From Duganella sp. BuS-21 (GTDB lineage Bacteria > Pseudomonadota > Gammaproteobacteria > Burkholderiales > Burkholderiaceae_D): a DNA stretch of 64,000 nucleotides. The translations under genes and the position numbers were made by a program. The notes beneath the pieces were generated by a model. The model saw nothing but the letters and a program-made list of their open reading frames with translations. It had not been told where the DNA came from and searched no databases. The DNA is taken from contig CP097466.1 of the NCBI GenBank assembly GCA_041874725.1, forward strand, positions 6,138,001-6,202,000, read 5' to 3'. Shown here piece after piece: positions 48,532-62,524 of this stretch; the stretch's first letter is position 1; every line of letters begins with the position of its first letter.

Positions 48532-51258
48532 TTACTGCGCTTCGGCTGCCTCCACGCGCGTTTGTACCAGTATCTTCTTGATCTCCGGGACGCAGGAGCC
48601 GCAATTGCCGCCGGCTTTCAGGCAGGCCGTCACTTCCGGCACCGTCTTCAGATCCTTCTCGATGATGGCATTGCAGATGGTGTTGCGGCCGACGCCGAAG
48701 CAGGAGCACACGGTAGGGCCGGTGTCGGCGCCCTTCTCCACCGGCATGCCGACCAGCAGGCCGACGCGATCGATCTCGCTCAATTGCTCCTTGGCGAACA
48801 GGCTGGCCAGCCACGCGCGCGACGGCATGTCCTGGCGCGGCGAGACGAAGATGCACTGGTCGATGCGGTCGTTCACCACGTGTACCGCGCGATACACGCC
48901 GGCGGTGCGGTCCTCGTATTCGAGCCAGTCGGCATCCAGATCCTGCACACCCAACAGCTCACGCGCCCATTCGGCATGGCTCTTGATGGTGTTGCGGCCG
49001 GCCAGTTCGTAGCGCGCGAATTCGCGGCCCTGGATGCGGGTCCAGTGGGCCACGCTCTCCAGCGCCACTTCGGCGCGGCTCAGGATGAAGCCATGCCAGT
49101 TGACGCGGAACTGCTCCACCCGCACCGGCGTATGCTTGAACTCAGGCTCGCCGGACACCGGATCGACCACCGGATTAACCACCGCGCCCACCCGCGCGTC
49201 GGATGCGGTCTGGCCGTTCCAGTGAATCGGAATGAAAATGGCGCCGCGCGGAATGCCGCCGCCGTGCTGCACGCGCGCCACCATCGCGCCCCATGCGGAG
49301 CTAACGCGTGCCAGCTCGCCTTCACGCACGCCGCTCAGCAACGCATCCTGTGGATGCATGTCGACGAACGATTCGGCGATGTGGTCGGCCAGCGTGGCGG
49401 ACTTGCCGGTGCGCGTCATGGTATGCCACTGGTCGCGCACACGGCCGGTGTTGAGCGACAGCGGATAGTCTTCGCTGACGGCGTGCATCGGCGCACGCGG
49501 CGCGGTGGCGATGAAGCGCGCCTTGCCATCCGCATGCGCGTAGACGTTGTCTTTGAAGAGACGCGCCTCCACCTGCAGCTCGCCGGAAGCGGTGCGGCGC
49601 ACCGGCCACTGGATCGGTTCCAGGTCATCGTACTCGCGCTGGTTCAAGCCGCCCAGGCCGGACATATCGAAAGCACGCGGCACGTCGCCCACGGCGTTGC
49701 GGAAGCCGCTCAGGCGCGCGTGCTCATCGAACACGCCGTGCGGGCCGCAGAAATCGAAACCGCTGTAGCCCATGCGCTGCGCGAACAGCGACAGGATCTT
49801 CCAGTCCGGCAGGGCTTCGCCCGGCGCCGCCAGGAAGGCGCGCTGGCGCGAGATGCGGCGCTCGGAGTTGGTGACCGTGCCATCCTTCTCACCCCAGCCC
49901 AGCGCCGGCAGCAGCACATCGGCATAGGCGGTGGTATCGGTGTTCTGCATGATATCGGAGGAGATCACCAGCTCGCACTTTTCCAGCGCGCGACGCGCCT
50001 GGTCGGCGTCCGGCAGGCTGACCACCGGATTGGTGGCGATCACCCATACCGACTTGACCTTGCCGTCTTCGATCGCTTTGAACAGGTCCACCGCTTTCAG
50101 GCCGCCCTTGTCGGCCATGGCCGGCGACTCCCAGAATGTCCGCGCCACTTCGCGGTGCTCGGCGCGTTCCAGGTCCATGTGCGCGGCCAGCATGTTGGCC
50201 AGGCCGCCCACTTCGCGCCCGCCCATGGCATTCGGCTGGCCGGTGATGGAGAACGGCCCCATGCCCGGCTTGCCGATGCGGCCGCCGATCAGGTGGCAGT
50301 TGATGATGGCATTGGCCTTGTCGGTGCCGGCCGACGATTGGTTCACGCCCATCGAGTAGGCCGTGATGGTCTTGCGGGTGGCGGCGAACAGTTCGTAGAA
50401 CTCCAGCAGCACCGGCAGCTCGATGCGGCAGATCTTGGCCACCACGGCAGGGTCGCTGCAATCGACGTTGGCCACTTGCAGCGCGGCGTCGAAGCCGTTG
50501 GTGTGCTGGGCGATGAAGCGCGGATCGACCGCGCCGATGCGCGACAGATAGCTCAGCAGACCGTTGAACAGCCAGACGTCGGTGCCGGCCTTGACCGGCA
50601 GGTGCAGGTCGGCCAGCTCGCAGGTGGCGGTGCGGCGCGGATCGATGACCACCAGCTTCATCTCCGGCCGCGCTTCCTTGGCCTTGAGGATGCGCTGGAA
50701 CAGAATCGGATGGCACCACGCGGTGTTGGAGCCAACCAGCACCACCATGTCGGCCAGTTCCAGGTCGTCGTAGCAGACCGGCACCAGGTCCTCGCCGAAG
50801 GCACGCTTGTAGCCAGCCACGGCGGACGACATGCACAGGCGCGAGTTGGTGTCGATGTTGGCGCTGCCGATGTAGCCCTTCATCAGCTTGTTGGCGACGT
50901 AGTAGTCTTCGGTCAGCAGCTGGCCGGAGACGTACAGCGCCACCGCATCCGGACCGTGTTCGGCGATGATGGTCTTCCAGGCGCCGGCCACTTTGTCCAG
51001 CGCTTCGTCCCACGATGCGCGGCGCAGGCCAAGGCCGTCTTCCTCGCGGATTTGCGGATACAGCAGGCGACCTTCCAGCCCTACCGTTTCGCCCAGCGCG
51101 GAACCCTTGACGCACAGGCGTCCCTTGTTCGCCGGGTGCTGCTTGTCGCCGGCGATGGCGATCGTGCCGTCGGCCAGCGGCGTGGCCTGCACGCCGCAGC
51201 CTACGCCGCAGTATGCACAAGTGGTACGGACAGCCAGATGGTCGGTGGACAGGTTCAA
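48532..51258 (-). CDS. nasA: Assimilatory nitrate reductase catalytic subunit (NasA type)
   Basis: A 908-residue cytosolic molybdopterin enzyme reducing nitrate to nitrite. Cys14, Cys17, Cys21 and Cys49 form the N-terminal [4Fe-4S] site (C-A-Y-C-G-V-G-C and R-L-C-V-K-G). The molybdopterin domain (T-N-S-R-L-C-M-S-S, M-G-V-N-Q-S) and dinucleotide-binding domain follow. The last 60 residues are a BFD-like [2Fe-2S] domain (C-S-C-F-G-V-G and C-G-S-C-V-P), as in Klebsiella NasA. No ATG fits; TTG at 51258 (20 bases after the preceding stop, with GAGAAG ahead) is the best start. It is the last gene of the narK-nirBD operon. Confidence 0.92.
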   Translation of the reverse strand: MNLSTDHLAVRTTCAYCGVGCGVQATPLADGTIAIAGDKQHPANKGRLCVKGSALGETVGLEGRLLYPQIREEDGLGLRRASWDEALDKVAGAWKTIIAEHGPDAVALYVSGQLLTEDYYVANKLMKGYIGSANIDTNSRLCMSSAVAGYKRAFGEDLVPVCYDDLELADMVVLVGSNTAWCHPILFQRILKAKEARPEMKLVVIDPRRTATCELADLHLPVKAGTDVWLFNGLLSYLSRIGAVDPRFIAQHTNGFDAALQVANVDCSDPAVVAKICRIELPVLLEFYELFAATRKTITAYSMGVNQSSAGTDKANAIINCHLIGGRIGKPGMGPFSITGQPNAMGGREVGGLANMLAAHMDLERAEHREVARTFWESPAMADKGGLKAVDLFKAIEDGKVKSVWVIATNPVVSLPDADQARRALEKCELVISSDIMQNTDTTAYADVLLPALGWGEKDGTVTNSERRISRQRAFLAAPGEALPDWKILSLFAQRMGYSGFDFCGPHGVFDEHARLSGFRNAVGDVPRAFDMSGLGGLNQREYDDLEPIQWPVRRTASGELQVEARLFKDNVYAHADGKARFIATAPRAPMHAVSEDYPLSLNTGRVRDQWHTMTRTGKSATLADHIAESFVDMHPQDALLSGVREGELARVSSAWGAMVARVQHGGGIPRGAIFIPIHWNGQTASDARVGAVVNPVVDPVSGEPEFKHTPVRVEQFRVNWHGFILSRAEVALESVAHWTRIQGREFARYELAGRNTIKSHAEWARELLGVQDLDADWLEYEDRTAGVYRAVHVVNDRIDQCIFVSPRQDMPSRAWLASLFAKEQLSEIDRVGLLVGMPVEKGADTGPTVCSCFGVGRNTICNAIIEKDLKTVPEVTACLKAGGNCGSCVPEIKKILVQTRVEAAEAQ

Positions 51259-51277
51259 GATGCTTCTCGCTTTAAAA

Positions 51278-52495
51278 TCACGCGGCCCGGTTGGACAGGG
51301 CCTCGCCAAATAACAGGGTTTGCCGGATCGGCGTAATATCGGCGCGGTTCTGGATCAAACCGAAATACCACGGGCCGTCTTTCACATCACCATACAGCAC
51401 AGCGCCGGTGACGCGGCCGTCCTTGATCACCAGGCGCTTATAGACGCCCCGGCGCGCATCGCGCAACACCAGGTCTTCACTGCCTTCGCCGCCGACGAAA
51501 TCGCCCACCGAATACAGATCGACGCCGGTGACTTTCAGGCGGGTGGGCGAGGTTTGCTGGACGTAGCGGCGCACGCCGGCGCCGGCCAGGTGGGCGCCGC
51601 ACACGCGCGCCTGGTCCCAGATCGGCGCCACCAGGCCGAAAGTGGCGCTGCGGTGCTGCACGCATTCGCCGACGGCGTAGACGCGCGGATCGTAGGTTTG
51701 CAGCGTATCGTCCACCACGATGGCGCGCTCGCAATGCAGGCCGGCCGATTTGGCCAGCTCGATGTTGGGTCGCACGCCGGCGGTCATCACCACCAGGTCG
51801 GCCGGAATCACGGTGCCGTCCTTGAAGCGCACGCCGGTCACGCGGTCCGGGCCGAGAATTTCCTCGGTCTGCGCGCACATCATGAACTTCAGGCCTTTCG
51901 CTTCCAGCGCTTTTTGCAGCAGCAGTGCGGCCGGCTTGTCGAGCTGCTGGTTCATCAGCGCGTCGGTCACGTGCACCACGGTCACGCTCATGCCCTGGCG
52001 TTGCAGGCCATTGGCGGCCTCCAGGCCAAGCAGGCCGCCGCCGATCACGACTGCGTTGCGGTGATTGCGCGCCATCGCCAGCATGGTTTCCACGTCCTGA
52101 ATATCGCGGAAGGCCAGCACGCCTTTCAGCTGATGGCCCGGCACGGGAATGATGAAAGGCTTGGAGCCGGTGGCGATCAGCAAGCGGTCGTAGCGTACTT
52201 CCAGCCCGGACTGCGCACGCACGATGCGGTTGCGGCGGTCGATGTGCACCACCGGGTCGCCCGCGTGCAGCGTGATGTTGTGCTGGACGTACCATTCGCG
52301 CGTGTTGAGCATGATGTCGTCGATGCTCTTCTCGCCGGCCAGCACCGGCGACAGCAGGATGCGGTTGTAGTTACCGTGCGGCTCGGCGCCGAACACGGTG
52401 ATGTCGTACATGTCCGGCGCCAGCTTGTACAGTTCTTCAACTGTACGCATGCCGGCCATGCCGTTGCCAATGACTACCAGAGATGGTTTCATCAT
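51278..52495 (-). CDS. NAD(P)/FAD-dependent reductase, probable electron donor to nitrate reductase
   Basis: A 405-residue pyridine nucleotide-disulphide-type flavoprotein similar to the N-terminal half of NirB. It has an FAD site (V-V-I-G-N-G-M-A-G), an ATG motif (L-L-I-A-T-G-S-K-P), an NAD site (V-V-I-G-G-G-L-L-G-L-E-A-A) and a final FAD contact (Y-A-V-G-E-C). It lacks the Cys pairs of NirB. Located between nirD and nasA, it most likely carries electrons from NADH to NasA, the role of NasB/NasC-type reductases. Two adjacent ATGs (52495, 52492) can serve as start. Confidence 0.87.
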   Translation of the reverse strand: MMKPSLVVIGNGMAGMRTVEELYKLAPDMYDITVFGAEPHGNYNRILLSPVLAGEKSIDDIMLNTREWYVQHNITLHAGDPVVHIDRRNRIVRAQSGLEVRYDRLLIATGSKPFIIPVPGHQLKGVLAFRDIQDVETMLAMARNHRNAVVIGGGLLGLEAANGLQRQGMSVTVVHVTDALMNQQLDKPAALLLQKALEAKGLKFMMCAQTEEILGPDRVTGVRFKDGTVIPADLVVMTAGVRPNIELAKSAGLHCERAIVVDDTLQTYDPRVYAVGECVQHRSATFGLVAPIWDQARVCGAHLAGAGVRRYVQQTSPTRLKVTGVDLYSVGDFVGGEGSEDLVLRDARRGVYKRLVIKDGRVTGAVLYGDVKDGPWYFGLIQNRADITPIRQTLLFGEALSNRAA

Positions 52496-52593: not shown

Positions 52594-52941
52594 TCACAGG
52601 CCTACCCAGACTTTGCCGTCGGCCACGCGTGCCGGATAGGTGCCGACCGAATGCTCCGGCGCTTCCAGGCATTCGCCGGTCTGCAGGTCGAAGTGCTGCT
52701 TGTAGATCGGCGAGGCCACCACGATGCGCTCGCCCAGCGAACCGACCAGGCCGCGCGACAGCACCGAGGCTTCCGAATTCGGATCATAGTTATCGATGGC
52801 GAACACGCGCGCTTCGCCGTCGTCGACGTGGAACACGGCCACCTGCGCGTCGTTCAGCAGAGCGCACACGCCTGTGTTGGGCACGATGTCGTCCAGGTTG
52901 CAGACGGCGATCCAGTTATCTGTTTGAATATCACGGTGCAT
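52594..52941 (-). CDS. nirD: Nitrite reductase (NADH) small subunit
   Basis: A 115-residue Rieske-fold protein. The usual Cys-His/Cys-His cluster ligands are absent, which is normal for NirD. Recognisable segments are N-W-I-A-V-C-N-L-D-D-I, P-N-T-G-V-C-A and S-P-I-Y-K-Q-H-F-D-L-Q-T-G-E-C-L. It assists the NirB subunit in the six-electron reduction of nitrite to ammonium. It follows nirB by 10 bases and is followed by a palindromic repeat. Confidence 0.94.
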   Translation of the reverse strand: MHRDIQTDNWIAVCNLDDIVPNTGVCALLNDAQVAVFHVDDGEARVFAIDNYDPNSEASVLSRGLVGSLGERIVVASPIYKQHFDLQTGECLEAPEHSVGTYPARVADGKVWVGL

Positions 52942-52951
52942 ATAATTCTCC

Positions 52952-55495
52952 TCAAGCTGCCTTGACTGCGATAGGGATAACGCGCTTGCGTTCTTCGATG
53001 GTGGCCGGGCGGATCTGGCCGCGCTCCTCCAGGAACAGCACGTTCTGGTCGCCCTTGTCGCTGTTGACGAAGTGGCGGAAACGCTTGCGGGTCTCTGGAT
53101 TCTCGACCGCTTCCTTCCACTCGCAAGCGTAGGTGTTGACCACGTGCTGCATGTCGGCTTCCAACTCGGCGGCGATGCCCAGCTTGTCCTTGACGACGAC
53201 GTCCTTCAGGTAATCCAGGCCGCCTTCCAGGTTCTCGCGCCAGGTGCTGGTGCGCTGCAGGCGGTCGCCGGTGCGGCTGTAGAACATCAGGAAGCGGTCG
53301 ATGTATTTGATCAGCGTTTCCTTGTCGAGTTCCGTCGCCAGCAGTTCGGCGTGGCGCGGCTTCATGCCGCCGTTGCCGGACACGTACAGGTTCCAGCCTT
53401 TTTCGGTGGCGATCACGCCGACGTCCTTGCCCTGCGCTTCGGCGCACTCGCGAGTGCAGCCGGATACGCCGAACTTGATCTTGTGCGGCGTGCGCAAGCC
53501 TTTGTAGCGGTTCTCCAGTTCGACCGCCAGGCCGATGGAGTCATCGACGCCGTAACGGCACCAGGTCGAGCCGACGCAGGACTTCACGGTGCGCAGCGAC
53601 TTGCCGTAGGCATGGCCGGATTCGAAGCCGGCGGCGATCAGTTCTTCCCAGATCAGCGGCAGCTGCTCGACGCGGGCGCCGAACATGTCGACGCGGGCGC
53701 CGCCGGTGATCTTGGTGTACAGGCCGTACTTCTTGGCGACCATGCCCACCGCGATCAAGCCGTCCGGCGTGACTTCACCGGCCGGCATGCGTGGCACCAC
53801 CGAGTAGGTGCCGTCCTTCTGGATATTGCCAAGGAAGTAGTCGTTGGTGTCCTGCAGGCTGGCGTGTTCCTTCTTCAGCACGAAGTCGTTGTAGACGGTG
53901 GCCAGAATGCTGGCGGCCAGCGGTTTGCAGACGTCGCAACCGAGGCCTTTGCCGTGCTTGTGCAGCAGCTCCGGGAAGGTCTTGACCTGGCCGACTTTGA
54001 TCAGATGGAACAGCTCCTGGCGCGCGTAGGCGAAGTGTTCGCAGACATGGTTGTTCACCTCCATGCCCTGCTTCTTCATCTCGGCCTTCATCACCTGCGT
54101 CACCAGCGGCACGCAGCCGCCGCAAGCGGTGCCGGCACCGGTGCAGCTTTTCAGTTCACCGATGGTGCACGCGCCGTTGGTCACAGCCGCGCACAACGTG
54201 CCTTTCGATACGTCGTTGCAGGAGCAGATCTGCGCACTGTCCGGCAGCGCATCCACGCCCAGCGTCGGCTTGGCAGCGCCATCCGATTGCGGCAGGATCA
54301 GGAACTCCGGCGATTCCGGCAGCTCGATTTTGTTCAACATCATCTGCAGCAGCGTGCCATACTCGCTGGCATCGCCCACCATCACGCCGCCCAGCAGGTA
54401 CCTGCCGCAGCTGGACACCACGATCTTCTTGTAGATCTGTTTGCGCTCGTCGATGAACTGGTAGGAGTGGCTGCCCTCTTCCTTGCCGTGCGGATCGCCG
54501 ATGGACGCCACGTCCACGCCCATCAGTTTCAGCTTGGTGCTCATGTCGGCGCCGGAGAACTCGCCCGCTTCGCCCAGCATGTGCTTGACGGCGACGCGCG
54601 CCATTTCGTAGCCCGGCGCGACCAGGCCGAAGATCATGCCGCCCCACAGCGCGCATTCGCCGATCGCATACACGTCCGGGTCGGAAGTGACGCAGTTGTT
54701 ATTGATTTCGATGCCGCCGCGCGGGCCGATGGTCAGGCCGGCTTCCTTGGCCAGCATGTCGCGCGGGCGGATACCGGCCGAGAACACGATCATGTCGGCA
54801 TCCAGGTGGCCGCCGTCGGCGAACTCCATGCGGTGGGTGCCATCCACGCCGTCGACGATGGCGGTGGTGTTTTTGCCCGTGTGGACGGTGACGCCCAGCT
54901 CTTCGATTTTACGGCGCAACACGCGCCCGCCGCCATCGTCCACCTGCACCGCCATCAGGCGCGGCGAGAATTCCACCACGTGGGTTTCCAGCTTCATGTC
55001 GCGCAGGGCCTTGGCGCACTCGAGGCCCAGCAGGCCGCCGCCGATCACCACGCCGGTCTTCGAACGGTTGCCGCATTCGAGCATCGCTTCCAGGTCTTCG
55101 ATGGTGCGGTAGACGAAGCAGTCCTTGCGCTCTTTGCCCGGCAGCGGCGGCACGAAGGGGAACGAGCCGGTGGCGATCACCAGCTTGTCGTAGTCCAGCA
55201 CACTGCCGTCGGCGATGGTGACGGTCTTGCCCTTGGTGTCGATGGCGGTGGCGCGGGTGTTCAGGCGCAGCACCATGCTTATTTCCGAATCCTTGCGGTC
55301 GAAGAAACCAGGCTTCACCAGCGATAGGTCTTCAGCCTTTTTACCGGAGAAGAATTCCGACAGGTGCACGCGGTCGTAGGCCGGGCGCGGCTCTTCGCAC
55401 AGCACCGTCACCTGCAGCTTGGCGGCGCTGCTGCTGGCCAGGCTTTCCAGGAATTTGTGGCCAACCATGCCGTGGCCGATGACGATAATTTTCAT
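52952..55495 (-). CDS. nirB: Nitrite reductase (NADH) large subunit
   Basis: An 847-residue cytosolic siroheme enzyme. In order: FAD site (V-I-G-H-G-M-V-G), NAD site (V-V-I-G-G-G-L-L-G-L-E), BFD-like [2Fe-2S] domain (C-S-C-N-D-V and C-G-G-C-V-P), ferredoxin-like half domain and the siroheme/[4Fe-4S] site C-V-G-S-T-W-C with G-C-T-R-E-C-A-E. All cluster cysteines are present. It takes NADH electrons to convert nitrite to ammonium. The upstream carrier gene is 13 bases away. Siroheme supply is provided by cobA in the neighbouring operon. Confidence 0.96.
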   Translation of the reverse strand: MKIIVIGHGMVGHKFLESLASSSAAKLQVTVLCEEPRPAYDRVHLSEFFSGKKAEDLSLVKPGFFDRKDSEISMVLRLNTRATAIDTKGKTVTIADGSVLDYDKLVIATGSFPFVPPLPGKERKDCFVYRTIEDLEAMLECGNRSKTGVVIGGGLLGLECAKALRDMKLETHVVEFSPRLMAVQVDDGGGRVLRRKIEELGVTVHTGKNTTAIVDGVDGTHRMEFADGGHLDADMIVFSAGIRPRDMLAKEAGLTIGPRGGIEINNNCVTSDPDVYAIGECALWGGMIFGLVAPGYEMARVAVKHMLGEAGEFSGADMSTKLKLMGVDVASIGDPHGKEEGSHSYQFIDERKQIYKKIVVSSCGRYLLGGVMVGDASEYGTLLQMMLNKIELPESPEFLILPQSDGAAKPTLGVDALPDSAQICSCNDVSKGTLCAAVTNGACTIGELKSCTGAGTACGGCVPLVTQVMKAEMKKQGMEVNNHVCEHFAYARQELFHLIKVGQVKTFPELLHKHGKGLGCDVCKPLAASILATVYNDFVLKKEHASLQDTNDYFLGNIQKDGTYSVVPRMPAGEVTPDGLIAVGMVAKKYGLYTKITGGARVDMFGARVEQLPLIWEELIAAGFESGHAYGKSLRTVKSCVGSTWCRYGVDDSIGLAVELENRYKGLRTPHKIKFGVSGCTRECAEAQGKDVGVIATEKGWNLYVSGNGGMKPRHAELLATELDKETLIKYIDRFLMFYSRTGDRLQRTSTWRENLEGGLDYLKDVVVKDKLGIAAELEADMQHVVNTYACEWKEAVENPETRKRFRHFVNSDKGDQNVLFLEERGQIRPATIEERKRVIPIAVKAA

Positions 55496-55508: not shown

Positions 55509-56828
55509 TTAAGCTGCCAGCTTGGTGGCGATTGCGGATTCTTCTACTGCGGCGCCGCTGAAGCGCGCCGCCAGTGCGCACAGGGCGGAGATGGCGACCA
55601 GCACGCCGAGGATACTCAGCGTCTGCTGCACGTCGCCGGTGCCTTTCATCAGGAAGCCTGCCGCGACGGCGCCTACGTTGCCGCCGGCGCCGATGATGCC
55701 GGCCACGCCGCCCAGGGCGCGCTTGTCGACGAACGGCACCACGGCGTAGGTCGCGCCGCAAGCCATATGGGTGAACAGGCCGAAGAACAGCATTGCGGCG
55801 ATGGCCAGTGCGGCGCTGCCGGCATTGGCGAACATCAGCAGGCCGGCACCTTCGCCCAGCATCAGCACGAACAGCAGGACGACGCGGTTATTCAGGTTGC
55901 CGTTGACGGCCAGCTTGTCCGACACCCAGCCGCCCAGTGCGCGGGCGAACAGCGCCAGCAGGCCGAAACTGCCGGCCGCCATGCCGGCTTGGGCCAGCGT
56001 CAGCTTGAAGTGGTCGACGTAGTAGACGGCGGCGATGTTGTGGATGAAAATCTCGATGCCGAAGCAGGCGCCATAGGTGATGAACAGCAGCCATACGCGG
56101 TGGTTGGTCGCGGCCAGCTTGAACGAATCCCAGCCACCTGCTCGGGCAGTGCCCTTGCTACCGCCTTCGATCGTCATGCCGGCGGCGCGCAGTTCAGTGA
56201 AGTTCCCTTGCGGGCAATCCTGGGTAAAGCGGTAGTAGACAAAGGCCATGACGATCATCAGCACGCCCGGCACGATCAGCGCTGCGCGCCAGCCGTAGCC
56301 TTCGCCCACGCCGAGCATCACCATGGCGGCCATCAGCAGCGGCATGGCCGCCTGCGCGGCGCCGCCGCCGGCATTGCCCCAACCTGCGGCGGCCGCATTG
56401 GCGGTGCCCACCACTTTAGGGCCGAACATCACCGAGGTGTGGTACTGCGTGATGACGAAGCTGGCGCCGGCCGCGCCGATGGCCAAACGGAAGAACAGGA
56501 AGCTCTCGTAGCTCTGTGCGAAGGCCACGCCGATCACCGGAATGGAACCCAGCAGCAGCAAGCCGGTATAGGCTTTGCGCGGGCCGAAGTGGTCGCACAG
56601 CGGGCCGATAATCAGGCGCACGATGATGGTGACGGCAACCGCCGCGATGTTGATGTTGGCGATCTGCGCGACGCTCAGGCCAAACTCGCCTTTAATCACC
56701 GGCATCAGCGGCGCGCAGGCGAACCATGCGAAGAAGCAGACGAAGAACGCCATCCAGGTCAAGTGGAACGCCCGCATCTGAGGGGTTGAAATCGAAAAGA
56801 GCTTGATGCTGGTAGCTTTGCTGGCCAT
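55509..56828 (-). CDS. narK: Nitrate/nitrite MFS transporter (NarK/NasA carrier type)
   Basis: A 439-residue carrier with 12 predicted helices. Both nitrate signatures of the NNP family are present: A-A-A-A-G-W-G-N-A-G-G-G in the first half and G-I-I-G-A-G-G-N-V-G-A in the second, with conserved Arg residues in helices 2 and 8. The ATG at 56828 starts just after the attenuator leader. It is the first gene of the nirBD-nasA operon and controlled by a sigma-54 promoter plus a terminator-containing leader. It probably imports nitrate for assimilation; nitrite transport is also possible. Confidence 0.93.
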   Translation of the reverse strand: MASKATSIKLFSISTPQMRAFHLTWMAFFVCFFAWFACAPLMPVIKGEFGLSVAQIANINIAAVAVTIIVRLIIGPLCDHFGPRKAYTGLLLLGSIPVIGVAFAQSYESFLFFRLAIGAAGASFVITQYHTSVMFGPKVVGTANAAAAGWGNAGGGAAQAAMPLLMAAMVMLGVGEGYGWRAALIVPGVLMIVMAFVYYRFTQDCPQGNFTELRAAGMTIEGGSKGTARAGGWDSFKLAATNHRVWLLFITYGACFGIEIFIHNIAAVYYVDHFKLTLAQAGMAAGSFGLLALFARALGGWVSDKLAVNGNLNNRVVLLFVLMLGEGAGLLMFANAGSAALAIAAMLFFGLFTHMACGATYAVVPFVDKRALGGVAGIIGAGGNVGAVAAGFLMKGTGDVQQTLSILGVLVAISALCALAARFSGAAVEESAIATKLAA

Positions 56829-56850: not shown

Positions 56851-56900
56851 AAAAAGGCGTCCGCGCAACCAGGCCTCAAAGACTGGGTTGGGCGGACGCC
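56851..56900 (-). terminator. Intrinsic terminator in the narK leader (attenuator)
   Basis: GGCGTCCGC at 56892-56900 pairs perfectly with GCGGACGCC at 56856-56864, extended inside by a second helix (CAACC..AG with CTGGTTG) and followed by five Ts in the minus-strand direction. It stands 22 bases before the narK ATG and after the promoter, so transcription must pass it to express the operon. It is a leader attenuator and not the end of cobA alone. Confidence 0.9.
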
Positions 56901-56969
56901 GTTGTCCTGCCAGTCCGTCTTTGGACCAGCTATGAATTCGTGTACTTCGGGGAGATCGCCGTTGATCCC
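56894..56969 (-). promoter_or_regulatory. Three-hexaloop ANTAR (NasT) antitermination leader of the narK-nirBD-nasA operon
   Basis: On the minus strand three small hairpins follow each other. H1: stem GATC/GATC (extended by two pairs), loop AACGGC, 56952-56969. H2: stem CTGGTCC/GGACTGG, loop AAAGAC, 56910-56929. H3: stem GGAC/GTCC, loop AACGGC, 56894-56907. All three loops are six bases with A at position 1 and G at position 4, the ANTAR recognition pattern. H3 shares bases with the 5' arm of the terminator, so both cannot form at once. NasT binding to H2 and H3 would therefore free the operon. H1 starts at about +4 from the predicted start site. Confidence 0.85.
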
Positions 56970-56981
56970 TTAGCCTCTGTA

Positions 56982-56998
56982 TTGCAAGAGCCGTGCCA
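56982..56998 (-). promoter_or_regulatory. Sigma-54 promoter of the narK-nirBD-nasA operon
   Basis: The minus strand reads TGGCACGGCTCTTGCAA, an exact match to the consensus TGGCACG-N4-TTGCA with GG at -24 and GC at -12. The predicted start is about 56972. It requires RpoN and an enhancer-binding protein, most likely NtrC. It is 54 bases downstream of the cobA stop. Confidence 0.9.
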
Positions 56999-57046: not shown

Positions 57047-57098
57047 GCACGCTATGGTGCGGTGCGATATCGCGGTGCATAATGCACGCTATGGGTGC
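57047..57098 (-). promoter_or_regulatory. Putative NtrC enhancer sites over the 3' end of cobA
   Basis: Two nearly identical units occur: GCAC-N7-GTGC at 57084-57098 and GCAC-N6-GTGC at 57047-57060, about 37 bases apart and both containing CATAGC on the minus strand. The first fits the NtrC half-site spacing exactly. They lie about 80-125 bases upstream of the predicted start, the normal place for NtrC enhancers, and overlap the last codons of cobA. Confidence 0.5.
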
Positions 57099-57897
57099 GC
57101 CAGGCCGGTGCATTTATTGCAAGCGATGGAGGCGCAGTGGGCACTTCGCTGGCAAGCATGGGCGCCGCCAGTTCCTGCCAGGCGTCGGCGCAGCGGACCA
57201 CGTCGCCAACGATGATGATGCTGGGGCTACCCAGGCCGCTATCGCGCAGGGCTTGCGGCAGCTGACCCAAGGTGGTGATCAGTTGCTGCTGGTCGGCGCG
57301 AGTGGCCGACTGCACCACTGCCACCGGCGTGTCGGCCGGGGCGCCGCCGGACAGCAGGCCGCTCTGGATGCTGTCCACACGGGCCACACCCATATAGATC
57401 ACCAATGTCAGCTTGCTCTGCGCGAGGGCCGCCCAATTCGGCTCCGACGCTTCGTCCTTGCCATGGCCGGTGACGAAGGTGGCGCCCTGGCTCCATGCGC
57501 GGTGCGTGACCGGGATGCCGATGCTGGTGGGCGCCGCGAGGCCGCTGCTGATGCCCGGCACCACCTCGACTTCGATGCCTTGCGCGCGCAGGGAGGCGCG
57601 CTCCTCGCCGCCACGGCCGAACATATAGGGATCGCCGCCCTTCAGCCGCACCACGCGGTTGCCGGCGCGCGCTTCGGCGATCATCAGCCGTTCGATGAAT
57701 TCCTGCGGCGTGGAAGCACAGCCGCCACGCTTGCCAACCTGAATCACGCGTGCGCTAGCTGGCGCGAAGGCCAATACTTCAGGATTGACCAGATCATCGA
57801 TCAGCACCACGTCCGCGCGTTCGATGGCCCGCACGGCCTTCAAGGTCAACAATTCCGGGTCGCCGGGACCGGCGCCCACCAAGGTTACGCTAGCCAT
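57052..57897 (-). CDS. cobA: Uroporphyrinogen-III C-methyltransferase (SUMT)
   Basis: A 281-residue SAM-dependent methylase that makes precorrin-2, the precursor of siroheme for NirB. Motifs V-G-A-G-P-G-D-P-E-L-L-T-L-K-A, V-R-L-K-G-G-D-P-Y-M-F-G-R-G-G-E-E and V-I-Y-M-G-V-A are intact. The last 35 residues or so beyond the methylase fold (rich in Ala, Pro, Tyr, Arg) are unusual and coincide with putative enhancer sites for the next operon. Its start overlaps the preceding gene by 13 bases. It lacks the CysG dehydrogenase/ferrochelatase part, so siroheme completion must be encoded elsewhere. Confidence 0.94.
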   Translation of the reverse strand: MASVTLVGAGPGDPELLTLKAVRAIERADVVLIDDLVNPEVLAFAPASARVIQVGKRGGCASTPQEFIERLMIAEARAGNRVVRLKGGDPYMFGRGGEERASLRAQGIEVEVVPGISSGLAAPTSIGIPVTHRAWSQGATFVTGHGKDEASEPNWAALAQSKLTLVIYMGVARVDSIQSGLLSGGAPADTPVAVVQSATRADQQQLITTLGQLPQALRDSGLGSPSIIIVGDVVRCADAWQELAAPMLASEVPTAPPSLAINAPAWRTHSVHYAPRYRTAP

Positions 57898-58574
57898 ATT
57901 TCCCCCGCCGCGGCCAGTGCGGCCGCCACCATTTCGTCAATCTCGCCGCTGATGGAAGACAAAACGCCCGCCACCACCGAGAACTCTTTGCCGGCCTGCC
58001 CGGCCCGCGCCGCCACGATGCGCGCGTTGAACGCCACCATGCGCGCCTGGCGGTTGATGGTTTCGATATCCGTAATCACGCCGCGCAGCTGCTTCTTCAT
58101 CAGGCGCGCGTGCGACTTGGACTGCTCTTCGTAGATGCCGGTGATCTGGTTCAGGATCGCCAGCGTCGGCGTGGTGATGCGCACCAGCTCCGCCAGCAGC
58201 TCGCCGCTGTCGCGGGCATTCTGCGCGATGGCCCTCAGGGTGCGCTCGGCCAGGTCGGCGAAGGCGGTGATCTCGCGGTCGCCCTGCAGCTTGCCGAAGT
58301 AGGCCTGCTCCAGCTCCGGGCAGAACACGCCCGGCAGGCCGTCGCCGTCGGTCAGCAGCGACTTGTGCGCGCCGCGGAACAGCGTCAGCGTCTCCTGCGC
58401 AACCGCCGCCGCGCCTTCCTGCTGCTGCGATGCCAGCACGGCGTACAGCACCAGCCGCTGCGAGGTGAAGCGGCGACGCCCGGACAAGTTGATCAGGGCG
58501 CCGAAGACTTCTCCCGGCAATGGTTTGCCGGCATGGGAGCCGGCGGCTGGTGGCATGGGCGCGTGCATGTGCAT
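57885..58574 (-). CDS. Soluble PilJ/NarX-type sensor domain fused to a chemoreceptor-tip-like segment
   Basis: A 229-residue protein without signal peptide or membrane segment. Residues about 25-75 resemble the PilJ/NarX N-terminal domain; residues 32-41 (G-R-R-R-F-T-S-Q-R-L) fit the NarX P-box pattern G-x-x-R-x-x-S-x-R-L that contacts nitrate. A helical stretch (about 100-170) leads to residues 172-210 (I-N-R-Q-A-R-M-V-A-F-N-A-R-I-V-A-A-R-A-G), which match the hairpin tip of methyl-accepting proteins. A good AAAGGAGA site precedes the ATG at 58574. It lies between nrtC and cobA in the nitrate operon. A cytosolic nitrate-sensing role is inferred; no published function is known to me. Confidence 0.75.
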   Translation of the reverse strand: MHMHAPMPPAAGSHAGKPLPGEVFGALINLSGRRRFTSQRLVLYAVLASQQQEGAAAVAQETLTLFRGAHKSLLTDGDGLPGVFCPELEQAYFGKLQGDREITAFADLAERTLRAIAQNARDSGELLAELVRITTPTLAILNQITGIYEEQSKSHARLMKKQLRGVITDIETINRQARMVAFNARIVAARAGQAGKEFSVVAGVLSSISGEIDEMVAAALAAAGEIWLA

Positions 58575-60345: not shown

Positions 60346-61629
60346 TCAGGCTTTGATCTTGAACGAGGCGGCGAACGCTTTCGGGTTCTTGCCGTCCCAA
60401 ACGGAACCATCCATCAGTTTCGACGTGCGCAGAGGGCTCTTCGGCACCGGCGTCTTGGTCATGGTGGCCGCATCCTTGTACAAATCGATCTGGTTGACCG
60501 AGGTCGCCACGGCCAGATAGTCTGGATCTTCCTTCAGCAAGCCCCAGCGGCGGTGCTGGGTCATGAACCACATGCCGTCCGACAGGTAAGGGAAGTTGAC
60601 CGCGCCATCGTTGTAGAACTTCATGTGGTTTGGATCGTCCCAGGTCTTGCCCAGGCCATTCTGGTAGCGGCCCATGATGCGCTGGTCGATCACGTCCTTG
60701 CTGGTGTTGACGTAGGACTTGTCGGCGATGGTTTCGGCCATCTTGTTCTTGTTGGCCAGCGAGGAGTCGATCCATTTGCCGGCATCGAGGATGGCGGCCA
60801 TCATGGCGCGGCAGGTGTTCGGATACTTCCTGGCGAATTCCAGCGTCGAGCCCAGCACCTTTTCCGGGTGATCCTTCCAGATGTCCTGGGTGGTGGTGGC
60901 GGTGATGCCGACGCCGTCCATGATGGCGCGGTGGCCCCACGGTTCGCCCACGCAGAAGCCGTCCATATTCCCGACCCGCATATTGGCCACCATCTGCGGC
61001 GGCGGCACCGTGATCACCTTGGCGTCCTTCATCGGGTTGATGCCGTTGGCGGCCAGCCAGTAGTACAGCCACATGGCGTGGGTGCCGGTCGGGAAGGTCT
61101 GCGCGAAGGTGTATTCGCGCTTGTCGGTGTTCATCAGCTTGGCCAGCGAGGCGCCGTCGACCGCGCCCTTGTCGGCCACTTTCTTGGACAGGGTGATCGC
61201 CTGGCCGTTGTTATTGAGGCTCATCAGCACGGCCATGTCCTTCTTCTGGCCGCCGATGCCCATCTGCACGCCGTACAGCAGGCCATACAGCACATGGGCC
61301 GCATCGAGATCGCCATTGGCCAGCTTGTCGCGCACGCCGGCCCAGGAGGCTTCCTTGCTCAGCACGAACTTGACGCCGTACTTCTTGTCGAAGCCCAGTA
61401 CCGAGGCCATGACCACGGAAGCGCAGTCGGTCAGCGGGATGAAGCCGATCTTGATTTCTTCCTTCTCCGGCTTATCCGAACCCGCTGCCCATACGCCACC
61501 CGTCGACAAACCCAACATGCTTCCTCCCGCTACAAGACCTGCACCATGAATCAATTTTCTACGCGTGGCATTCACCTCTTCCGTCTTCGGTGGCAGCGCG
61601 CTCTTCGTATCAAGCTTCTTGTAATTCAT
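60346..61629 (-). CDS. nrtA: Periplasmic nitrate-binding protein (NrtA type, Tat-like signal)
   Basis: A 427-residue solute-binding protein of the NrtA/CmpA family. The N-terminus carries T-R-R-K-L-I-H-G-A-G-L-V-A-G, a twin-arginine-type export signal, and the mature part begins near K-I-G-F-I-P-L-T-D-C-A. H-A-M-W-L-Y-Y-W-L-A-A-N-G and V-G-E-P-W-G are typical of nitrate or bicarbonate binding. It is exported, so it is not the cytosolic NasS co-regulator, although that protein is of the same fold. The start lies downstream of a sigma-54 promoter and an antitermination leader. Confidence 0.92.
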   Translation of the reverse strand: MNYKKLDTKSALPPKTEEVNATRRKLIHGAGLVAGGSMLGLSTGGVWAAGSDKPEKEEIKIGFIPLTDCASVVMASVLGFDKKYGVKFVLSKEASWAGVRDKLANGDLDAAHVLYGLLYGVQMGIGGQKKDMAVLMSLNNNGQAITLSKKVADKGAVDGASLAKLMNTDKREYTFAQTFPTGTHAMWLYYWLAANGINPMKDAKVITVPPPQMVANMRVGNMDGFCVGEPWGHRAIMDGVGITATTTQDIWKDHPEKVLGSTLEFARKYPNTCRAMMAAILDAGKWIDSSLANKNKMAETIADKSYVNTSKDVIDQRIMGRYQNGLGKTWDDPNHMKFYNDGAVNFPYLSDGMWFMTQHRRWGLLKEDPDYLAVATSVNQIDLYKDAATMTKTPVPKSPLRTSKLMDGSVWDGKNPKAFAASFKIKA

Positions 61630-61666: not shown

Positions 61667-61713
61667 AAAAAAAACGCCTACCCTCACGAAAGCATTCATG
61701 ATTGGGTAGACGT
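61667..61713 (-). terminator. Intrinsic terminator in the nrtA leader (attenuator)
   Basis: On the minus strand ACGTCTACCC pairs with GGGTAGGCGT (ten pairs with one G-U) around a 20-base loop and is followed by eight Ts. It is 37 bases before the nrtA ATG and downstream of the promoter. Its 5' arm overlaps the third hexaloop hairpin. Confidence 0.9.
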
Positions 61714-61768
61714 CGTTGTCTGGTGAGCCCTACCGCCGTTGGCAGGGCACAGCCGCGCATCTTTGCGC
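61708..61768 (-). promoter_or_regulatory. Three-hexaloop ANTAR (NasT) antitermination leader of the nrt operon
   Basis: Three hairpins with AxxGxx six-base loops occur on the minus strand. H1: GCGC/GCGC, loop AAAGAT, 61755-61768. H2: GCCCTGCC/GGTAGGGC, loop AACGGC, 61727-61748. H3: AGAC/GTCT, loop AACGAC, 61708-61721. H3 overlaps the 5' arm of the terminator (61704-61713), making the two mutually exclusive. H1 starts at about +4. The design is the same as in the narK leader, and nasT is encoded directly upstream. Confidence 0.85.
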
Positions 61769-61780
61769 TTGACTACAGCT

Positions 61781-61797
61781 ATGCAATGTCCGTGCCA
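61781..61797 (-). promoter_or_regulatory. Sigma-54 promoter of the nrtABC operon
   Basis: The minus strand reads TGGCACGGACATTGCAT, again an exact TGGCACG-N4-TTGCA match with GG/GC at -24/-12. The predicted start is about 61771, so the leader begins 3 bases before H1. It lies between the nasT terminator and the leader. Confidence 0.9.
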
Positions 61798-61891: not shown

Positions 61892-62524
61892 TCAGCCCAG
61901 CAGGTCTTCCACGTCCAGAATGCGCTGCGCCACTTCGGACAGCTTGAGGTTCTTGCTCATGGCCATGGAGCGCAGCTTCTGGTAGGCCTGTTCCTCAGTG
62001 AAGCGCTGGCGCTCCATCAGCAGGCCCTTGGCGCGTTCGATGACCTTGCGCTCGGCCAGTTTGCTCTTGGTGTCGCTCAACTCCTCCAGCAGCTTCTGCT
62101 CGCGCTTGAACTGCGCCAACGCCACCTGCAGCACCGGCTTGATGCGCTCGCCCTGCAGGCCGGCCACGATGTAGGCCGACACGCCCGCCTCCACCGCCGC
62201 TTCCATGCTTTCCGGGTCCTGGTCCTCGGTGAACATGACGATGGGGCGGCGTTCATCGCGGGTGGCGATGACGATGTGCTCCAACACGTCGCGCGCGTCG
62301 GACTCGGCATCGACGATGATCATGTCCGGCTGCAGCTGGCCGATGCGCTCGGGCAGATACATATCGGGCGGCAGCGAGGCGACGATGTCGTAACCGGCTT
62401 CCAGTAGGCCGATACGCAATACCCGCGCACGCTCGGCCTGGGCATGCAGCGCTTCGTCATCCTCGTCATGGATGACGGTGTTGACAACGACGATACGCAG
62501 ATTGGGCATGGCCGGCTTACGCAT
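61892..62524 (-). CDS. nasT: ANTAR-domain antiterminator NasT
   Basis: A 210-residue RNA-binding response-regulator-like protein. The receiver part keeps the acceptor-site Asp72 (I-I-V-D-A-E-S-D) but has Asn-Thr in place of the N-terminal acidic pair (V-V-V-N-T-V), and contains an acidic insertion (H-D-E-D-D-E-A-L-H). A coiled coil (about 125-150) leads to the C-terminal ANTAR domain (V-I-E-R-A-K-G-L-L-M and A-Y-Q-K-L-R-S-M-A-M). NasT proteins bind hexaloop RNA and prevent termination in nitrate leaders; two matching leaders lie at 56894 and 61708. The start may be 62524 or 62509. No nasS is next to it; it is transcribed alone toward its terminator. Confidence 0.92.
   Translation of the reverse strand: MRKPAMPNLRIVVVNTVIHDEDDEALHAQAERARVLRIGLLEAGYDIVASLPPDMYLPERIGQLQPDMIIVDAESDARDVLEHIVIATRDERRPIVMFTEDQDPESMEAAVEAGVSAYIVAGLQGERIKPVLQVALAQFKREQKLLEELSDTKSKLAERKVIERAKGLLMERQRFTEEQAYQKLRSMAMSKNLKLSEVAQRILDVEDLLG

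Follow-up and report, generated by a model that had tools for sequence, protein, structure and literature searches.

The leader in front of narK in Duganella sp. BuS-21 is most likely an antitermination leader for the ANTAR protein NasT, transcribed from an NtrC-type sigma-54 promoter and carrying an additional hexaloop at the 5′ end of its RNA that probably serves the early capture of NasT. We hold this reading with good confidence on the strength of the structures found in silico and their mutual exclusion, the conservation and covariation of the hairpins, and their linkage to ANTAR genes; from these we infer the binding of NasT, the response to nitrate, and the capture role of the first hairpin (H1). 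The window, as we use the word, is the whole stretch of DNA analysed, 64,000 nt in length.

Background

In the accessible parts of the papers cited here, the targets of ANTAR proteins are hexaloops with A at position 1 and G at position 4 (A1/G4), joined by a linker of variable length (PMC3369931), for which an actinobacterial rule gives 2 to 25 nt between the hairpins (PMC8164766). Where a number is given, the leaders in these papers are described with dual hexaloops or two hairpins (PMC3369931, PMC8934654, PMC3795266, PMC6759348, PMC5424462, PMC12316311, PMC8164766, PMC8131098). The dual-hexaloop leaders that are targets of EutV, NasR and AmiR share with the narK leader their A1/G4 hexaloops, a last hairpin lying over the terminator, and an ANTAR protein encoded nearby; they have two hexaloops, whereas the narK leader has three, the extra one being 5′-terminal and keeping a constant spacing from the sigma-54 promoter. 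The nasA leader of Paracoccus denitrificans, which is bound by NasT (PMC3795266) and whose hairpin HI is required for expression (PMC5424462), is described with two hairpins, HI and HII, where we find three, and P. denitrificans has a NasS-NasT pair, while a search with NrtA found no close NasS in the genome studied here.

The nearest precedents for more than two hairpins, in the portions of the sources available, are EutX/rli55, in which an extra single hexaloop stands next to the dual motif (PMC8934654), and PPE1-5′ of Mycobacterium tuberculosis, which has three predicted hairpins and binds PdtaR, with hexaloops not mentioned in the part of that source available (PMC8131098). Both are described there as regulator-titrating RNAs, whereas the last hexaloop of the narK leader overlaps the terminator of its own operon. 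Our search of literature listings, with subscription papers (among them an Azotobacter nasA leader study) outside its scope, returned no report of a three-hexaloop ANTAR leader or of the narK motif; a prior description is possible. According to the current and unsettled model, as given in the accessible text, an ANTAR dimer holds a single hexaloop at any moment and moves back and forth between the two of a pair (PMC8934654). Three-loop leaders, together with relatives from the same genus without one of the loops, make a ready-made experiment on that model, and the conservation of the third hairpin in many relatives offers a means of testing how a NasT-like protein intercepts an elongating RNA polymerase early enough.

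Genomes, leaders and controls

The named set (set A) consists of 80 loci obtained by NasT alignment, the best 80 of 595 confirmed, covering 1.43 Mb on both strands in genera that include Duganella, Massilia, Herbaspirillum, Janthinobacterium, Undibacterium, Rhodoferax and Acidovorax. The order set (set B) holds 30 loci; the Rfam family RF03032 gave 34 matches, reduced to 30 loci and 25 leaders, some from the same genomes as set B; and the class set outside the order holds 40 loci, covering 40 of the 66 class genomes with a match (the top 39 and one lower). The family set comprises 90 leaders found with R1, a model of the narK leader with hits at E 0.01 in 110 of the 195 family genomes; these 90 are the ones examined among 119 R1 matches, the other 29 being mostly weaker or second copies. 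A narK-like gene was found by tblastn in all 30 of the 90 family loci that have long flanks. Both the order and the family set contain the window’s own genome (L009 and L198). R1 did not report that genome’s other leader, before nrtA, and therefore preferentially recruits three-hairpin leaders of the narK type.

One locus (L052) was left out of the narK set, its narK match beginning at residue 220, and another (L049) fails the strict promoter pattern, so that it is absent from the count of 16 narK leaders and present in the alignment of 17. The count of hexaloops in 100 leaders (59 nrtA, 16 narK, 25 RF03032) leaves out loci without the promoter pattern in range. Chains nested within longer chains number four in set A and two in set C and leave the per-locus counts unaffected. 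The shuffle controls for chains cover the named and class loci, with the 30 order loci of set B left out.

The narK leader

All elements of the leader lie on the minus strand of the window:

56983..56998, minus strand: sigma-54 (−24/−12) promoter TGGCACGGCTCTTGCA, 5′ of narK
56952..56969, minus strand: H1, hairpin at the RNA 5′ end, GGGAUC-AACGGC-GAUCUC, loop AACGGC, +4 to +21
56909..56930, minus strand: H2, GCUGGUCC-AAAGAC-GGACUGGC, loop AAAGAC, covarying 8-bp stem, +43 to +64
56894..56907, minus strand: H3, GGAC-AACGGC-GUCC, loop AACGGC, antiterminator overlapping the 5′ arm of the terminator, +66 to +79
56851..56900, minus strand: intrinsic terminator, 9-bp stem and U-run, stem-loop +73 to +117

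The promoter reads TGGCACG-GCTC-TTGCA from 56998 to 56983 (general form TGGCACG-N4-TTGCA) and matches exactly TGGCAC-N5-TTGC, which we take to be the −24/−12 consensus with its spacing; the spacing that we assume from the −12 element puts the predicted +1 at about 56972. Letters T1 G2 G3 C4 A5 C6 and T13 G14 C15 are invariant in 17 aligned narK leaders. From the coordinates, H1 and H2 are separated by 21 nt, H2 and H3 by 1 nt, and the 8-bp stem of H2 includes G-U pairs. The arms of the terminator run from 56900 to 56892 and from 56864 to 56856, with an extra 5-bp inner stem and a U-run from 56855 to 56851, and the bases that it has in common with H3 are the last three of the H3 loop together with the H3 3′ arm. 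An earlier note, made from the letters of the window, had described an exact −24/−12 promoter, three A1/G4 hexaloops (AACGGC, AAAGAC, AACGGC) and a 9-bp terminator with a U run before narK, and all of these are present at the positions listed; folded alone, the terminator has −31.2 kcal/mol and a z-score of −5.9.

That note had also called the overlap a clean on/off switch, and here the outcome is divided: H3 and the intrinsic terminator are mutually exclusive in silico, while the predicted equilibrium folding is not perfectly clean. When the whole leader is folded (z −4.1), H1, H2 and the terminator are formed and H3 is absent. When the leader ends before the 3′ arm of the terminator, the centroid consists of H1, H2 and H3, but H3 is missing from the minimum-energy structure, which has H1 and H2, and the z-score reaches no more than −1.1. 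In nested folding, in which the transcript is lengthened stepwise, the probability of H3 is 0.99 at length 80, 0.59-0.66 at 84-92 and 0.89-1.00 at 100-112, and it drops from 0.89 at length 112 to 0.00 from 116, where the 3′ arm of the terminator appears. H1 is formed already at the shortest length tried (20) and H2 by length 60, and both are compatible with the terminator; H1 dips to 0.13-0.20 at lengths 52-56 and to 0.40-0.44 at 84-92, and H2 goes down to 0.00-0.30 at 96-112. The pairing that could cause this melting of H2 is, by eye, not kept in one related leader (L043).

Genes of the cluster and the regulator

The leader stands before the first gene of the operon that it would control, and the nrtA and nasT genes lie further upstream:

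55509..56828, minus strand: narK, nitrate/nitrite MFS transporter of the NarK family, the gene that opens the controlled operon
52952..55495, minus strand: nirB, nitrite reductase large subunit
52594..52941, minus strand: 115-aa ORF where nirD would be expected and of its size, a name resting on position and size only
48532..51309, minus strand: nasA-type assimilatory nitrate reductase, best matches to molybdopterin oxidoreductase families including NasC and NasA
60346..61629, minus strand: nrtA, nitrate-type ABC binding protein with an N-terminus that is Tat-like by eye
61892..62524, minus strand: NasT-type ANTAR protein, likely the trans-acting regulator (PF03861, E 1.9e-21)

The downstream order narK-nirBD-nasA given in the earlier note is found, with nirD as the ORF named by position and size, and the regulator of NasT type that it had invoked has its counterpart in the ANTAR gene within the cluster. 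The narK protein scores 296.2 bits against TIGR00886, slightly below the cut-off of 311.7, and the nasA-type protein is below the cut-off for every one of the 25 families shown. Between the ORF of nirD size and nasA lies another NirB-like FAD/NAD(P) protein of 405 aa (51278-52495).

Among solved structures, NasT best matches 6wsh (E 8.3e-22), which is EutV (PMC8934654), followed by 1s8n, annotated as a putative antiterminator, 4akk, a nitrate regulatory protein, and 1qo0, AmiR. In the structure-match alignment, where the chain numbering is taken as two above that of the paper from the residue pattern, R142, K149, E160, Y164 and M172 of EutV correspond to R159, K166, E177, Y181 and M189 of NasT. 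NasT appears to retain residues that align with the G4 contacts of EutV. In place of EutV N173, R175 and R177, NasT has S190, N192 and K194; in the part of the study available, the joint change of the three EutV residues to alanine abolished binding (PMC8934654), and this difference counts against our reading. The second ANTAR protein of the genome with locus L197 (G000:C1:1417103-1417261) is a response-regulator ANTAR of about 210 aa.

A six-frame search of the genome with NrtA at E 1e-5, which could miss a distant NasS, found no close NasS paralogue and returned NrtA itself and a 26% identical match only; by comparison, the signal-less proteins that lie just behind nasT in relatives, and that we call NasS-like, are 54-69% identical to NrtA. 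NasS was also sought in the stretch upstream of the window, where the proteins found instead are a binding protein of the sulfonate type and one resembling TauD (both named by eye). In the window and in relatives L039-L118, nasT is adjoined either by NrtA, mostly with a Tat-like signal and with the leader between, or by a signal-less NasS-like protein, and each stretch examined has one of the two only. A tie between the third loop and the absence of NasS was considered and dropped, three loci (L048, L051 and L062) having both a NasS-like protein and three-loop narK leaders. Tat substrates fold in the cytosol, and on that account one may speculate that NrtA doubles as a nitrate sensor. Another possible sensor is a 229-aa protein at 57885-58574, also found in several relatives, in which a PilJ-type domain is accompanied by part of a methyl-accepting signalling domain.

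A second leader before nrtA

The window holds a further leader of the same plan from 61797 to 61667, also on the minus strand:

61781..61797, minus strand: second sigma-54 promoter TGGCACGGACATTGCAT, 5′ of nrtA
61755..61768, minus strand: H1 of the nrtA leader, GCGC-AAAGAT-GCGC
61727..61748, minus strand: H2 of the nrtA leader, GCCCUGCC-AACGGC-GGUAGGGC
61708..61721, minus strand: H3 of the nrtA leader, AGAC-AACGAC-GUCU, overlapping its terminator
61667..61712, minus strand: intrinsic terminator and U-run of the nrtA leader

Its loops AAAGAT, AACGGC and AACGAC are all A1/G4, its linkers, from the coordinates, are 6 nt (H1-H2) and 5 nt (H2-H3), and in nested folding its H3 falls to 0.00 from length 96.

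Conservation and covariation

In the 17 aligned narK leaders, 97.0% of the pair cells of H1, H2 and H3 hold standard pairs, against 28-53% when the pairing is slid. Both sides have changed in two pairs of H1 and three of H2; the covariation score was reached in none of 500 shuffles, and the number of pairs changed on both sides in 26 of 500. H3 is invariant across this set, as expected of bases common to two structures, and since it never varies, it yields no evidence from covariation. The 90 family leaders, whose alignment (A6) was fitted to the model and hence leans towards it, are 92.7% paired, with 180 cells changed on both sides against 46.6 in shuffles; such changes occur in five of the six H1 pairs and seven of the eight H2 pairs, and the outermost pair of H1 is unpaired in 54 rows. 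A1/G4 hexaloops fill all three slots in 85 of the 90. The other five rows are three without H1 (L269, L270 and L275), L281, in which H2 is out of register, and L287, which has no H3. The earlier note had named leaders in relatives that do not conserve A1/G4 and the stems as evidence that would tell against it; the comparison was made, and A1/G4 and the stems are conserved. In L287, as in L052, the narK leader runs after H2 directly into what appears to be mid-narK, with H3, the terminator and the start of narK missing; both loci lie on contigs of equal length (9208), so the two may be the same place.

These alignments bear on whether H1 might be a structural hairpin that stabilises or insulates the 5′ end of the RNA, its loop unused by NasT and H2-H3 alone forming the switch. 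A purely structural hairpin needs no particular loop letters, and therefore it counts against this reading that A1, A2 and G4 of the H1 loop are kept in 17 of 17 narK leaders and in all 87 family rows that have H1, while the other positions of those 87 vary: position 3 is C in 42, T in 28, A in 10 and G in 7, position 5 is G in 54, A in 31 and C in 2, and position 6 is C in 66, A in 11 and T in 10. The nrtA leaders are less strict, and they lend this alternative some support. The H1 slot of the 59 nrtA leaders holds A1A2.G4 in 32 and A1.G4 in 8 (not all clean); 15 have another hexaloop (10) or another hairpin (5) there without A1/G4, and 4 have none. Of the ten other hexaloops, those of L086 and L118 are weak as well as shifted, and six (L075, L076, L084, L085, L087 and L109) can be folded as a 5-bp stem with a GNRA tetraloop, a loop class that Met172 of EutV is suggested, in the accessible part of that study, to exclude (PMC8934654). 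The H1 loops reading AGCGAT (L056, L089, L092, L093 and L097) can be read as both hexaloop and GNRA tetraloop, and H1 of the nrtA leaders appears to drift from one to the other by way of this intermediate. Weighing both sides, we consider a purely structural H1 quite unlikely, and H1 is probably, judging from its conserved letters and position, an early capture site for NasT.

The H3 loop starts with G in at least 8 of the 59 nrtA leaders (by eye), some of which have a good H1 and H2; these loops, GAAGGC or GACGGC (L091, L096, L098, L100, L104, L105, L107 and L116), could be closed as a longer stem.

Tests against chance

Single A1/G4 hexaloops do arise by chance, at least one being present in 59 of 300 shuffled leaders, and the third loop might be no more than such a match. 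The counts leave this next to no credit. The 100 leaders contain 253 A1/G4 hexaloop hairpins, the next commonest letter pair reaching 39, and 300 dinucleotide shuffles contain 67 in total; three or more occur in 53 of the 100 real leaders and in 1 of the 300 shuffled ones. When chains of AA.G hexaloops are required to run into a terminator, the 80 named loci have 37 with three loops, one with four and 29 with two. Shuffled copies of these loci (one each) yield a single chain of two and no chain of three, no chain is present in the shuffled class loci, and three other letter sets applied to the named loci give no chain of three and four of two. With the stems covarying besides, the three-hexaloop pattern is not a chance one, and a chance origin of the third loop is rejected, as far as sequence goes, by the shuffles, the other letter sets and the conservation of the loops in the family set.

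Counted by locus, a chain of three or more is found in 31 of the 80 loci of the named set, in 13 of the 30 from the order and in 10 of the 40 from the class, a chain of two in 25, 9 and 22, and no chain in 24, 8 and 8, respectively; beyond the order, loci with two loops outnumber those with three. One class outgroup locus (L167) has a chain of four AA.G hexaloops at a spacing of 52-57 nt, which could be several leaders or a larger array.

Position of the hexaloops

Of the 50 three-loop leaders whose promoter was matched, 48 have an H1 that begins 31-37 nt past the first base of the −24 element, and the spacing of H2 and H3 is 18-31 in 53 of 59 three-loop leaders, while that of H1 and H2 is loose (16-64). 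By these constancies, H1 is fixed relative to the promoter and H2-H3 relative to the terminator. In the three narK leaders without H1, all from the window’s genus, the next hexaloop comes 39 nt after the promoter element begins, so that a hexaloop close to the 5′ end is kept even where only two are left. H1 or its ANTAR letters have been lost in some relatives, and the third loop is therefore not essential everywhere.

The earlier note had seen in the three loops a means of graded or cooperative control, with more than one NasT dimer held at once. The presence of three conserved sites agrees with this, and if, as the available text of the EutV study has it, a dimer engages one hexaloop at a time, several dimers per leader would be possible (PMC8934654); but the free spacing between H1 and H2 speaks against one tight complex, and three same-genus leaders have two loops only. 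We regard such multiple occupancy as rather unlikely. The position of H1 fits an early capture site better than graded or cooperative control.

Possible control upstream of the promoter

A candidate NtrC-like site, GCAC-N7-GTGC, which we take to be an NtrC site from its half-site spacing, lies 100 nt upstream of the narK promoter:

57084..57098, minus strand: NtrC-like site GCAC-N7-GTGC

Across the window alone, the motif is at chance level (4 found against 4.2 expected). Of 77 leaders, 48 have an exact copy within the 180 nt that precede the promoter, and 69 have one when a single mismatch is allowed, compared with 10% of such stretches after mononucleotide shuffling. The window’s narK leader has the exact site, and its nrtA leader holds no exact copy in that range.

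Proposed mechanism

Under nitrogen shortage, as the sites suggest, an NtrC-type activator and sigma-54 RNA polymerase would start transcription, and without nitrate the terminator (56900-56851) would halt most transcripts ahead of narK-nirB-nasA. When nitrate is present, free NasT would bind the hexaloops, and H3, once held by NasT, would withhold the bases that the terminator needs, thus letting the polymerase read through. H2 and H3 would form the classical dual hexaloop, with H1, at the extreme 5′ end of the transcript, as a further site for NasT. The footprint of RNA polymerase is about 16 nt, and with this value assumed, H1 would be exposed about 80 nt before the point of termination, compared with about 40 for H2; for that reason H1 would most likely catch NasT early and hand it over to H2 and H3 as these emerge. 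The leader would then act as an AND gate, sensing nitrogen shortage through NtrC and sigma-54 and nitrate through NasT. More tentatively, we suggest a widespread class of three-site ANTAR leaders, the Rfam narK RNA included, with capture on a promoter-proximal hexaloop once it emerges from the polymerase, a relay from H1 to H2 to H3, and read-through set by a race between capture and elongation; we find this extension possible and somewhat short of probable.

The Rfam narK RNA

The motif RF03032, which reportedly came from a 2017 survey of candidate RNAs, looks like the same kind of NasT leader, and the comparison suggests a function for it. Its consensus opens with a −24/−12 element and, like the narK leader, has a promoter-like 5′ end, an AACGGC hairpin and, at its end, CGAC-AAAGAC-GUCG, another hairpin with an A1/G4 hexaloop, which is left unmodelled in the family; it differs in modelling one hairpin and in including promoter bases. 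The consensus itself indicates that part of the model is promoter sequence rather than RNA. None of the Rfam families scanned over the window reached its cut-off, and the narK leader scores 21.8 bits against RF03032, below the gathering cut-off of 43.2. In the whole genome, the two leaders of the window rank first (27.8 bits, E 0.008, and 21.8 bits, E 0.2), the next match has 19.8 bits, and all are below the family cut-off.

At E 0.001 or better, RF03032 matches 34 of 300 order genomes, three of them over the cut-off, the window’s own genome not being among the 34. NasT, called at E 1e-25, is present in 113 of the order genomes, 30 of which have a match, against 4 of the 187 genomes that lack it (p 1.4e-10). 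In those four, proteins are encoded that combine NIT and ANTAR domains in the manner of NasR, and thus an ANTAR nitrate regulator is present in 34 of the 34 matching genomes. Of the 30 matches in genomes with NasT, 28 lie at most 6 kb from nasT, 19 of them within 500 nt, and the other two are on other contigs.
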